DNA from: Robiginitomaculum sp.
GTDB taxonomy: Bacteria > Pseudomonadota > Alphaproteobacteria > Caulobacterales > Maricaulaceae
Assembly (NCBI GenBank): GCA_021776595.1
Contig: JAJFFP010000030.1
Coordinates: forward strand, 1 to 64,000
Direction of reading: 5' to 3'
DNA: 64,000 nucleotides
Positions 3,762-9,024 of this stretch are shown here, piece after piece. Every line of letters starts with the position of its first letter. The stretch's first letter is position 1. The position numbers and the translations under genes were made by a program. The notes under the pieces are model-generated. The model was not told the DNA's origin and did not search any database. It worked only from the letters and a program-made list of their open reading frames with translations.

Positions 3762-4709
3762 CTATAATTTACTTAACACCAAATCTGCCAGACAACTGAT
3801 AAACCCCTGATGGCTACTCAGCGCCGGAACCCGCATATAGTTTTTCACGCCAGATGATTTTGCAATCGCTAAATATTCAATATCCAGCTCTACTAGGGTT
3901 TCAATATGTTCAGACACAAAGGCAATTGGCACAACCAGCACGGATTTTCCCTGCGCGCCCGCGCGGACAATCTCTTCTCGTGTTGATGGTCCTATCCAGC
4001 GCAAGGGGCCAACCCGGCTTTGATAGGCAATTTGCATGTCTTTCAGTCTTTCCGGCAGTTTATTAGCTATGGCTGCACAACTGTCCTCAACCTGTTGCTG
4101 ATATGGGTCCCCCGCCAGGATAATTTTTTCTGGCAGGCCGTGCGCCGACATAAGGATTCGAGTATTTTCCGGTGCTCCGTATTTTTGGTAGGTATCAACG
4201 ATATTATCCACATGTGCCTGTATAAATTGCGCATTGGTTTCATAAGAAATAACTTTTTCTACTGCTCTTTCGGCTTTTTCCCAAGCGTTAATAAATGTTC
4301 CTGTGGTGGTGGTTGAAAACTGCGGATATAGCGGCAGCAGAATAATTTTATCGGCACCCCAATTTCTTATTTCCGCCTTCACCGCAGAAATACATGGTTC
4401 CCAATATCGCATGGATATAAAAACCTTGATGTTTTTTTCAGGCACGTTTTTTTTCAACAAATCGTGCAAGGCATCCGCCTGTTTTTGGCTTTGCTCTACA
4501 ATTGGTGATTTGCCGCCCATCAAGGCATAGTTTTTTTTGGCTTCCTTTTCCCGTGCCCGGCTGATCAATTCTGCCAGAATATATCGAAACGGGTTTGGAA
4601 GACCCATAATTGCCGGATCTGCGAAAAGATTGCGTAAAAAAGGGCGCACGCTTTTCAGGCTGTCTGGCCCTCCCATGTTAAATAGAACCACGGCTGTTTT
4701 TTCGCTCAT
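3762..4709 (-). CDS. hemH: Ferrochelatase
   Basis: Inserts ferrous iron into protoporphyrin IX, the last step of protohaem synthesis. The 315-residue protein starts EKTAVVLFNMGGPDSL, has LLPLYPQFSTTTTG, the catalytic histidine in MSAHGLPEKI, and a C-terminal substrate-entry part with FVSEHIETLVELDIEY including the conserved glutamate. Length is normal. Its ATG overlaps the hemE stop codon by 4 bp, so the two are translationally coupled. The order hemE-hemH-hemJ puts decarboxylase, chelatase and oxidase in one unit leading away from the origin. Confidence 0.97.
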   Translation of the reverse strand: MSEKTAVVLFNMGGPDSLKSVRPFLRNLFADPAIMGLPNPFRYILAELISRAREKEAKKNYALMGGKSPIVEQSQKQADALHDLLKKNVPEKNIKVFISMRYWEPCISAVKAEIRNWGADKIILLPLYPQFSTTTTGTFINAWEKAERAVEKVISYETNAQFIQAHVDNIVDTYQKYGAPENTRILMSAHGLPEKIILAGDPYQQQVEDSCAAIANKLPERLKDMQIAYQSRVGPLRWIGPSTREEIVRAGAQGKSVLVVPIAFVSEHIETLVELDIEYLAIAKSSGVKNYMRVPALSSHQGFISCLADLVLSKL

Positions 4710-5749
4710 ATCGGGCGTTTTACCTGTTCGATTAACTGCGTCATATGTTCTGGGGGCGTGTCTGGCGTAATGCCGTGGCCCAGATTAAAAATATGCGGCC
4801 TGCCAGAAAAACTGTTCTTTATGCGCGCCACCTCGTTTTGCAGCGCCTTACCCCCTACGCGCAGAACGGCCGGATCAAGATTTCCCTGCACCGTCATATC
4901 AGTAGGTAAATTTTCATTAAACCAGACGCCATTTTGTGCCTGGTCCAATGCGATCGCCTTTATACCGGTTTCTTTTGCATAGCGAAGCGCCTGGTGGCCA
5001 CACCCACGCGGAAACCCAATGATTGGCACATTTACCCCGCGCGCTTTTAACCCTTCAGTGATATTTCTGGCCGGGCGGATAATAAAGCGTTCAAAAAAAG
5101 GCTCGGGCAATCCTTCGGCCCAGGATTCAAACAGCTTGAGCACCTCTGCGCCGGCTTCTGCCTGCATCTGTAGATATTCAATCGTGGCTTCGCTAATTAT
5201 ATCCAGCAATAGATCAAACGATTGTGGGTCTTTCCAGGCCCACAACCGGGATTTCCATTTATCTTTAGAGCCACCGCCCTCAACCATATACGTTGCTACG
5301 GTCCAGGGTGCTCCTGCAAATCCGATCAAGGCCACATCATCAGGCAAACCCTCCCGAACCCGTTGCAGCGTTTCACCAACGGGTTCCAGTTTATGCAGGC
5401 GCCAACTCTTTTCCAACAGGGAAAGATTATCATTTTGGCTTAACGGGCACAGCTTTGGACCTTCTCCTGCAACAAAATGCAATTCACGCTCCATGGCATG
5501 GGGGATCAGCAATATATCTGCAAACACGATCGCTGCATCAAGATCAAACCTGCGCAAGGGTTGCAACGTAGCTTCACTTGCCATTTCAGGATTAAGACAA
5601 AAATCAACAAATGAATCTGCACCAGCGCGCAATTCTCTGTATTCTGGTAAATAACGTCCGGCCTGGCGCATCACCCAGACCGGAGGGCTTTTAGCGGTTC
5701 TTCCATTAAAGGCATTTATCAGAGGTTTTACCACTTTTCCCTTGGTCAT
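4706..5749 (-). CDS. hemE: Uroporphyrinogen decarboxylase
   Basis: Decarboxylates the four acetate groups of uroporphyrinogen III to give coproporphyrinogen III. Signature segments are PPVWVMRQAGRYLPEYR near the start and GFAGAPWTVATYMVEGGGS in the middle. The frame is open upstream to 5857, but the extra 36 residues would lie across the putative origin and are not like the family. ATG 5749 (MTKGKVVKPL) gives 347 residues, the usual length, with GGGAA just upstream. hemE is the marker gene on one side of the chromosome origin in Caulobacter and relatives. Confidence 0.97.
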   Translation of the reverse strand: MTKGKVVKPLINAFNGRTAKSPPVWVMRQAGRYLPEYRELRAGADSFVDFCLNPEMASEATLQPLRRFDLDAAIVFADILLIPHAMERELHFVAGEGPKLCPLSQNDNLSLLEKSWRLHKLEPVGETLQRVREGLPDDVALIGFAGAPWTVATYMVEGGGSKDKWKSRLWAWKDPQSFDLLLDIISEATIEYLQMQAEAGAEVLKLFESWAEGLPEPFFERFIIRPARNITEGLKARGVNVPIIGFPRGCGHQALRYAKETGIKAIALDQAQNGVWFNENLPTDMTVQGNLDPAVLRVGGKALQNEVARIKNSFSGRPHIFNLGHGITPDTPPEHMTQLIEQVKRPI

Positions 5750-5804
5750 ACTTTTCCCAGATTTCTTTATATTTTTATTGTGGTTATGGTTAGCCTGTAA
5801 AGAA

Positions 5805-6019
5805 TGTGGATAACCATAGTTATACACAGGATTGAAGAACTTATTCGCACGAAACACACAAGGAAAGTAAATATTGCACGTTGGACCTTAGAAAGGAAAA
5901 AACGAAAAACACGTATGTTTTCAACCATATATAATGTTATCATGATGCAGAGATATTAAAAAAGCTGCAATGAAGAGATTATACACAGCCGCAAAAAAAT
6001 GGTAATAATCTGTGCAGAA
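5805..6019. promoter_or_regulatory. DnaA box cluster
   Basis: Perfect matches to TTATNCACA occur at 5820-5828 (TTATACACA, plus), 5979-5987 (TTATACACA, plus) and 5805-5813 (TGTGGATAA, the minus-strand form TTATCCACA). The first two boxes by position are divergent and 6 bp apart. Single-mismatch boxes are TTATTCGCA at 5841-5849 (plus) and TGTGCAGAA at 6011-6019 (minus-strand TTCTGCACA). These are the expected binding sites for the initiator DnaA. The most AT-rich sequence lies between the left and right groups. Confidence 0.8.
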
Positions 6020-6092
6020 GTAATACCGGAATTAAGGCAACCTCGCCAAGCGCCGGTGCGGTAGTGTTAAAGGCCATAACAGCGCCCGGTTA

Positions 6093-6108
6093 TTAACACT
6101 TTGTTAAC
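6093..6108. promoter_or_regulatory. CtrA binding site at the origin/ppsR side
   Basis: The sequence TTAACACTTTGTTAAC is an exact match to the full CtrA recognition site, TTAA, seven bases, TTAAC. CtrA is the alphaproteobacterial cell-cycle response regulator, which in Caulobacter blocks replication from the origin and controls many promoters. The site lies 20 bp before the ppsR start codon, so it could act on the origin, on ppsR transcription, or both. Its presence together with cpdR in this window suggests that the CtrA circuit exists in this organism; binding is inferred. Confidence 0.7.
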
Positions 6109-6127
6109 GATTGCGCAGAGGGAAATA

Positions 6128-6988
6128 ATGAGCGAATTGGCCACACAAACCGGCTTTTATGTCCATATGCACTTGCTGTCTGATGCGACTGGCGAGACCC
6201 TGGCGGGCATTATTCGCGCGGCAAGCGCACAGTTTCGTATGCTGGTGCCGCTGGAACATATTCACGTGCTAACGCGCTCGGAAAAACAACTGGAGCTAGC
6301 CTTGGCTGATATAGAGGCCGCGCCAGGCATTGTGCTTTACACCATGGCGAATGAGAAACAAAAACAGCGCCTGGTTACTTTCTGCAAGGAAAGGACTATT
6401 CCCTGCATTGATGTGTTAGGCCCGACACTTCAAACACTTAGCCAATATCTTGGTAGCCCGGTTAGCCATGAAACAGGGGCGCAGCACATTCAAGATGAAG
6501 AATACCATCAGCGCATCAATGCCTTAAACTTTGCGATGGCTCATGATGACGGCCTTTCTCCGGAAAGGATCAACCAGGCCGATGTAATATTGCTTGGGGT
6601 TAGCAGAACATCTAAAACACCGACCTGCGTATATCTTGCAAACCGGGGAATAAAAGCGGCCAACATACCGATTGTAGGAAAGGCCCCGTTAAACCCGGCC
6701 TTGCTGCAGGCGGACAACAACCCATTGATCGTTGGTTTAACCATCAGCCCACGGCGATTGGTACAAATACGCCGCAATCGGCTGCTTAGCTTAAATGAGC
6801 ACAGGCCCAGCGATTATATTAATGAGACAGCCGTGCGCGATGAAATCATCTTCGCCAAACGTCTGTTTGCCCGGCACCAATGGCCAGTTATAGATGTAAC
6901 GCGCCGTTCTATCGAAGAAACGTCGGCAAAAATTATGTCGCTGCTGGCATCACGCAAGAATGAGAGCAAGGTCAATGAGGGTGGCTGA
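6128..6988 (+). CDS. ppsR: PEP synthase/PPDK regulatory kinase-pyrophosphorylase (DUF299)
   Basis: DUF299 proteins phosphorylate, and by pyrophosphorolysis dephosphorylate, phosphoenolpyruvate synthase or pyruvate phosphate dikinase. The P-loop-like motif GVSRTSKTPT and the downstream RRNRLLSLNE segment are typical. The ATG at 6128 (MSELATQTGFYVHMHLLSDATGE) has AGAGGG upstream and yields 286 residues, the normal length; the frame also allows a TTG at 6101 inside the CtrA palindrome, which I reject. The gene (RP001-like) is the right-hand marker of the alphaproteobacterial origin and leads the maf-aroE-coaE-dnaQ run. Whether the target here is PpsA or PPDK cannot be told. Confidence 0.93.
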   Translation: MSELATQTGFYVHMHLLSDATGETLAGIIRAASAQFRMLVPLEHIHVLTRSEKQLELALADIEAAPGIVLYTMANEKQKQRLVTFCKERTIPCIDVLGPTLQTLSQYLGSPVSHETGAQHIQDEEYHQRINALNFAMAHDDGLSPERINQADVILLGVSRTSKTPTCVYLANRGIKAANIPIVGKAPLNPALLQADNNPLIVGLTISPRRLVQIRRNRLLSLNEHRPSDYINETAVRDEIIFAKRLFARHQWPVIDVTRRSIEETSAKIMSLLASRKNESKVNEGG

Positions 6989-8437: not shown

Positions 8438-9024
8438 TTATTCTTGGCCTTACCGGCTCAATTGGAATGGGCAAAAGCACGACGGCCATGCTTTTTAAAC
8501 GCGAAGGCGTTCCGGTTTTTGATTCAGACGCCATCGTGCACGACCTTTATCAGAACAACGAAGGCCTTATTAAAGCAATTTCACACATATTCCCGGACGC
8601 AGTGTGTGAGAATAAAATTAACCGGAAAATTCTCGGTGATCTTATCCGCGCGCACCCACAAGACCTGCAGGAGATTGAAAACATAGTTCATCCTGCGGTC
8701 GCCGAAGTGCGCAAAAACTGGCTGGAACACGAAGAAAAAAAAAGAACACCAATTGTGCTTTTTGATATTCCCTTGCTTTTTGAAACCGGATCAGAAAACC
8801 GTGTGGATAAAATTGTTGTGGTTACAACGTCTTCTGAAACACAGAAAATGCGTGTGCTTGAACGCCCCGGAATGACAGATGCCCATTTTAAGCACCTGTT
8901 GTCACGCCAGACACCCGATGAAGAAAAGCGCCAACGCGCAGACTTCATTATTGATACCTCAAAGGGGCTTGAAGTTGCTACGCAACAAGTGCAAAGCATA
9001 CTGCGCCAGCTAGGGGCAAAATAA
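8434..9024 (+). CDS. coaE: Dephospho-CoA kinase
   Basis: Phosphorylates the 3'-hydroxyl of dephospho-CoA in the last step of coenzyme A synthesis. The P-loop GLTGSIGMGKST is at residues 4-15, followed by the substrate aspartate segment FDSDAIVHDLY and the lid RQTPDEEKRQRADFIIDTS. Length 196 residues, as expected. ATGA overlap with aroE; 48 bp separate it from dnaQ. Confidence 0.96.
   Translation: MIILGLTGSIGMGKSTTAMLFKREGVPVFDSDAIVHDLYQNNEGLIKAISHIFPDAVCENKINRKILGDLIRAHPQDLQEIENIVHPAVAEVRKNWLEHEEKKRTPIVLFDIPLLFETGSENRVDKIVVVTTSSETQKMRVLERPGMTDAHFKHLLSRQTPDEEKRQRADFIIDTSKGLEVATQQVQSILRQLGAK

Follow-up and report, generated by a model that had tools for sequence, protein, structure and literature searches.

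A predicted chromosome origin in the hemE–ppsR gap of a Robiginitomaculum-like alphaproteobacterium, with one conserved CtrA site at its ppsR edge

Is the short gap between the divergent genes hemE and ppsR the chromosomal origin (oriC) of this Robiginitomaculum-like marine alphaproteobacterium, a Caulobacter relative, and what does the CtrA site at its edge control? Origins between hemE and a COG1806 gene have already been published; they are established in Caulobacter and predicted in Rickettsia, and the number of CtrA sites varies in related groups (PMC1914354). What is new here is a further such origin, having a lean CtrA arrangement together with strong-type DnaA boxes. We consider it very likely that the gap is the origin. 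The role of the CtrA site is the less certain part of the answer, and the two are weighed separately below.

The gap, its flanking genes and its DnaA boxes

Direct reading of the window (the whole stretch of 64,000 nucleotides that was analysed) places the gap at positions 5750-6127, 378 bp, between two divergent genes. The first-pass annotation had named hemE and a DUF299 gene as the flanks and had pointed out that this pair brackets the Caulobacter origin. Both genes were confirmed by curated NCBIfam families, and the divergent hemE-COG1806/DUF299 pair is the same one as in Caulobacter. Both are single-copy in their own genome. By PpsR, the nearest named relatives are Robiginitomaculum MAGs having 80-83% identity. 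The features discussed below are as follows.

4706-5749, minus strand: hemE, uroporphyrinogen decarboxylase, left origin border (NCBIfam TIGR01464, 384 bits, passing the curated threshold).
5750-6127: predicted chromosome origin (oriC), the hemE–ppsR gap, 63% AT.
5772-5804: conserved stretch TTTTTATTGTGGTTATGGTTAGCCTGTAAAGAA (16-nt windows at 0.74-0.82 pairwise identity against a gap mean of 0.49, 8 congeners).
5805-5813, minus strand: exact DnaA box TTATCCACA by sequence match; no congener keeps an exact box there.
5820-5828, plus strand: exact DnaA box TTATACACA, at offset 71 from hemE; four other congeners have TTATTCACA or TTATGCACA at the same offset.
5841-5849, plus strand: DnaA-box-like TTATTCGCA, one mismatch, from the motif scan.
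5914-5963: candidate unwinding element, the AT-richest 50 nt (78%).
5979-5987, plus strand: exact DnaA box TTATACACA; L100-L103 have exact boxes at matching offsets (233-245).
6011-6019, minus strand: DnaA-box-like TTCTGCACA, one mismatch; L100-L103 have minus-strand TTTTTCACA or TTATACACA about 40 nt beyond the inner box.
6090 (start), plus strand: DnaA-box-like TTATTAACA, one mismatch, overlapping the CtrA site.
6093-6108, plus strand: full CtrA site TTAACACTTTGTTAAC, a TTAAC-N6-TTAAC direct repeat whose end lies 19 nt short of the ppsR start codon; exact in 8 of 8 congeners.
6128-6988, plus strand: ppsR (DUF299/COG1806), regulator of PPDK/PEP synthase, right origin border (NF003742, 308.6 bits, passing the curated threshold).

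The three perfect DnaA boxes that had been reported (5805-5813, 5820-5828 and 5979-5987) are all present as placed. Dinucleotide shuffles of the gap gave an expectation of 0.0145 exact boxes, and none of 2000 shuffles reached three; counting boxes with at most one mismatch, the gap has six compared to 0.63 expected. The whole assembly (2.63 Mb) contains 38 exact boxes, and their sole trio within 200 bp is the one in this gap. Under uniform placement of the 38 boxes, the probability of any such trio is about 0.0003. A second hemE-like locus with a stronger DnaA-box cluster had been named as evidence against an origin here; neither a second hemE nor a stronger cluster was found in the assembly, which is 93.7% complete. 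Two more exact boxes, both TTATCCACA, lie inside flanking genes (hemH, 4204-4212, and coaE, 8802-8810), and 5 of the genome's 38 exact boxes fall within 4.6 kb around the gap.

The box plan is only loosely kept among the eight congeners. Five genomes have a box 71 nt from hemE, and in the same five an exact inner box follows at offsets 230-245, with a minus-strand box about 30-40 nt on. Individual boxes turn over, and the gap of one congener (G014) has no exact box at all. The weak DnaA box that had been noticed beside the CtrA site did not hold up: the one-mismatch match TTATTAACA is kept in only 2 of 8 congeners, and we therefore rejected it as a conserved element overlapping the CtrA site.

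The gap is 62.7% AT compared to 47.8% for the window, a content reached by just 0.19% of stretches of the same size. An AT-rich core had been described, and the AT-richest 50 nt lie at 5914-5963. The stretch at 5772-5804 ranks second in conservation within the gap, after the CtrA site, among the eight congeners; it may be a hemE promoter, a protein contact or an unrecognised origin element. Gap matches to the IHF motif WATCAANNNNTTR were limited to those having one mismatch. A search of the gap for a CcnA-like RNA returned no Rfam match, which is a weak negative since CcnA itself may be absent from Rfam. As a ppsR promoter candidate, the sole plus-strand match near ppsR would end within the start codon and was set aside.

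The CtrA site at the ppsR edge

The first-pass annotation described a perfect CtrA palindrome at 6093-6108. The exact TTAA-N7-TTAAC match stands, while the site is a direct repeat and not a palindrome. In aligned gaps (the window and L100-L106) all eight congeners match this rule exactly, and no other 16-mer of the gap is as well conserved (pairwise identity 0.924 compared to a gap mean of 0.489). Its position is nearly fixed in the eight congeners, with the ppsR start about 33-37 nt further on, and the rest of the gap drifts. Since a single TTAA-N7-TTAAC match in this AT-rich gap has a chance probability of 0.0175, the site is not very rare by chance, and its weight comes from conservation rather than rarity. 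No further CtrA site was seen in the gap at one mismatch or fewer except for the site's own overlap, and the congeners are nearly alike in this. The earlier count, a single full site on the ppsR side where Caulobacter has five, was correct, and the site is conserved in all eight congeners, so that the suspicion of a different arrangement holds as anatomy. Throughout its own genome the pattern has 11 matches (about 9 places), which makes the origin one of few full CtrA sites. The reversed-pattern control gave 33 matches, which suggests possible selection against stray full CtrA sites.

The order was sampled via five families (f1-f5), with 200 genomes examined for ppsR and 87 read at hemE-ppsR. 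ppsR was present in all 200. In 85 of the 87, hemE and ppsR are divergent with a gap of 303-547 bp; the stretches of the other two (L014 and L022) gave no hemE match. Over the 85 gaps, TTAA-Nk-TTAA occurs 51 times at a spacer of 7 and 0-7 times at every other spacer from 1 to 15, and this N7-specific spacing speaks for selection acting on the CtrA sites of the gaps, with the caveat that related genomes are not independent. Positions of the sites are family-specific. An N7 site 33-38 nt from ppsR occurs in genera g1, g2 and g9 and in 2 of 12 g7 genomes, the other ten of which keep a ppsR-side site with one mismatch. Elsewhere, N7 sites lie mid-gap in f2, at several places in f3 and near hemE in f5, and most f4 genomes have none. 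CtrA binding adjoins the origin of Hyphomonas neptunium (PMC7200025), and f4 gaps having no exact N7 site may thus still be under CtrA control. Gap length, multiple N7 sites and an adjacent G-box, compared with the published anatomy of Cori, indicate that f3 is probably the Caulobacter group.

The element just before ppsR also differs among groups. It is DnaA-box-like (CTTGTCCACA or CTTGTTCACA) in parts of f4 (L080 and L083-L086) and of f1 (L028, L048 and L051 of genus g6), and the corresponding element in f1 genera g1, g2 and g7 is a CtrA half-site (CTTGTTAACA or CTTATTAACA). It looks as if one site had been switched between a DnaA type and a CtrA type.

The anatomy alone would fit control by the edge CtrA site of either the origin or ppsR. 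The gap could be the origin with the site serving ppsR only, by repressing or timing its transcription, and replication left untouched. The closeness of the site to the ppsR start is consistent with this explanation, as are its fixed distance to ppsR, its variable distance to the DnaA boxes and, in several f3 genomes, the position of the rightmost site about 50-65 nt away from ppsR. However, the N7 site lies elsewhere in the gap, away from ppsR, in f2, f5 and several genera of f1, and CtrA sites in the gap are therefore not tied to this gene; moreover, the CtrA sites of the Caulobacter origin act on replication (PMC4468827). We regard control of ppsR alone as unlikely, with a sizeable share of the probability left to it on account of the ambiguous anatomy. 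With modest confidence, we favour the reading that CtrA acts on replication through the site at 6093-6108.

If the gap works as an origin, DnaA-ATP would load on two groups of boxes, 5805-5849 and 5979-6019, flanking the AT-rich stretch at about 5900-5965, and would open the DNA at that stretch. Such loading and opening are predicted from the conservation of motifs, with boxes that are only partly conserved. Phosphorylated CtrA, whose putative binding at 6093-6108 likewise follows from motif conservation, would keep the origin closed in cells that are not replicating, whether by shutting DnaA out at the edge of the complex, by blocking transcription there, or by both. The regulatory effect on the origin is probable by analogy with Caulobacter. 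The genome encodes one DnaA as well as GcrA, and its protein L038 closely matches the Caulobacter CtrA sequence; we take L038 to be the CtrA-like protein.

Comparison with known origins

In Caulobacter crescentus the origin (Cori) has five CtrA sites along with weak G- and W-boxes, and CtrA represses it, most simply via exclusion of DnaA (PMC4468827). The present gap resembles Cori in its divergent flanking genes, similar size, AT content above that of the genome, DnaA boxes (PMC1914354, PMC4468827), full CtrA site(s) and parS within about 8 kb. It differs in having one full CtrA site where Cori has five, exact strong-type boxes (TTATMCACA) in place of the weaker G-boxes and W-boxes, and an AT content of 63% compared to 44%. 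A G-box TGATCCACA next to the CtrA site was sought in the window gap, and no TGATCCACA was found. The origin of Rickettsia prowazekii has the same gene pair and a similar length (384 bp), but at 83% it is much higher in AT, and it belongs to an intracellular lineage (PMC1914354). CtrA is also used at the origins of certain marine relatives of Caulobacter, where this use probably evolved independently, according to the citation of Shaheen et al. 2009 in PMC4468827; as far as that citation describes them, they are like the present one in coming from a marine group and in having a CtrA site placed unlike that of freshwater Caulobacter.

A more tentative reading is that the Robiginitomaculum group has a minimal switch, made up of one fixed ppsR-edge CtrA site and strong-type DnaA boxes that turn over, and that this switch evolved apart from the five-site, weak-box scheme of Caulobacter. 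We are doubtful of it and offer it as a possibility. If it were true, the family-specific positions would mean that CtrA control has been re-invented repeatedly at one origin. The sampled gaps form a clean comparative set, with one gap, two fixed flanks, and a number and position of CtrA sites that vary by family, and the published idea of repeated evolution of CtrA control at origins becomes directly testable across the order.

GC skew, parS and the placement of the origin

The assembly consists of 95 contigs, and the contig of the window (C23) is 71 kb long. Since this many contigs rule out a genome-wide skew curve for the genome itself, skew was taken from relatives. In the window, GC skew switches sign at about 6 kb, and the direction of genes flips together with it. 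The cumulative-skew minimum of C23 alone is at 67,171, near the far end and away from the gap; for a contig of 71 kb such a minimum is uninformative, and not contrary to the origin call. A 316-kb contig of the same genus (G004), read whole, has its cumulative minimum at 101,768; its origin gap spans about 101,900-102,240, some 130 bp away. In a closed genome of the same family (G054), all 10 stretches sampled between 0 and 1.55 Mb had positive skew and all 9 between 1.70 and 3.08 Mb negative skew, with a return to positive at 3.34 Mb. Its ppsR is at 3.257 Mb, with the opposite skew switch about half a chromosome off. Sparse sampling of a further genome (G148) gave a sharp skew switch at the gap and one clean negative half, the other half being noisy.

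Congeners G004 and G014 each have a pair of perfect parS sites on the hemE side, at a distance of 6-9 kb from the gap. The genome itself has exactly two perfect parS, both on contig C65, compared to none for the reversed-pattern control.

L138, 1590-1605 and 3599-3614: perfect parS pair on C65, flanking a gidA-like gene, 2 kb apart.

Neighbouring genes on C65, identified by eye, resemble mnmE, gidA, rsmG, parA and parB. Judging from synteny, C65 is very probably next to the left end of the contig that holds the window.

We judge it highly improbable that this is just a divergent promoter region whose DnaA boxes serve transcription and that the true origin lies elsewhere, for instance near dnaA: DnaA does double as a transcription factor in Caulobacter (PMC4468827) and the C23 minimum is away from the gap, but no exact DnaA box occurs on the contig of dnaA (C74), the skew minimum of G004 and the chromosome halves of G054 point to the gap, and parS is close to it in G004 and G014. 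The call of the gap as the origin, which the first-pass annotation had made as likely, is strong owing to the gene pair and its single-copy members, the trio of boxes, the AT content, the local skew switch, the skew of relatives, the proximity of parS and the lack of exact boxes on the dnaA contig. For a marine lineage that is uncultured, the origin is thereby placed to within a few hundred bases.

A parS pair having the identical 2-kb spacing is also present in G004 and G014.
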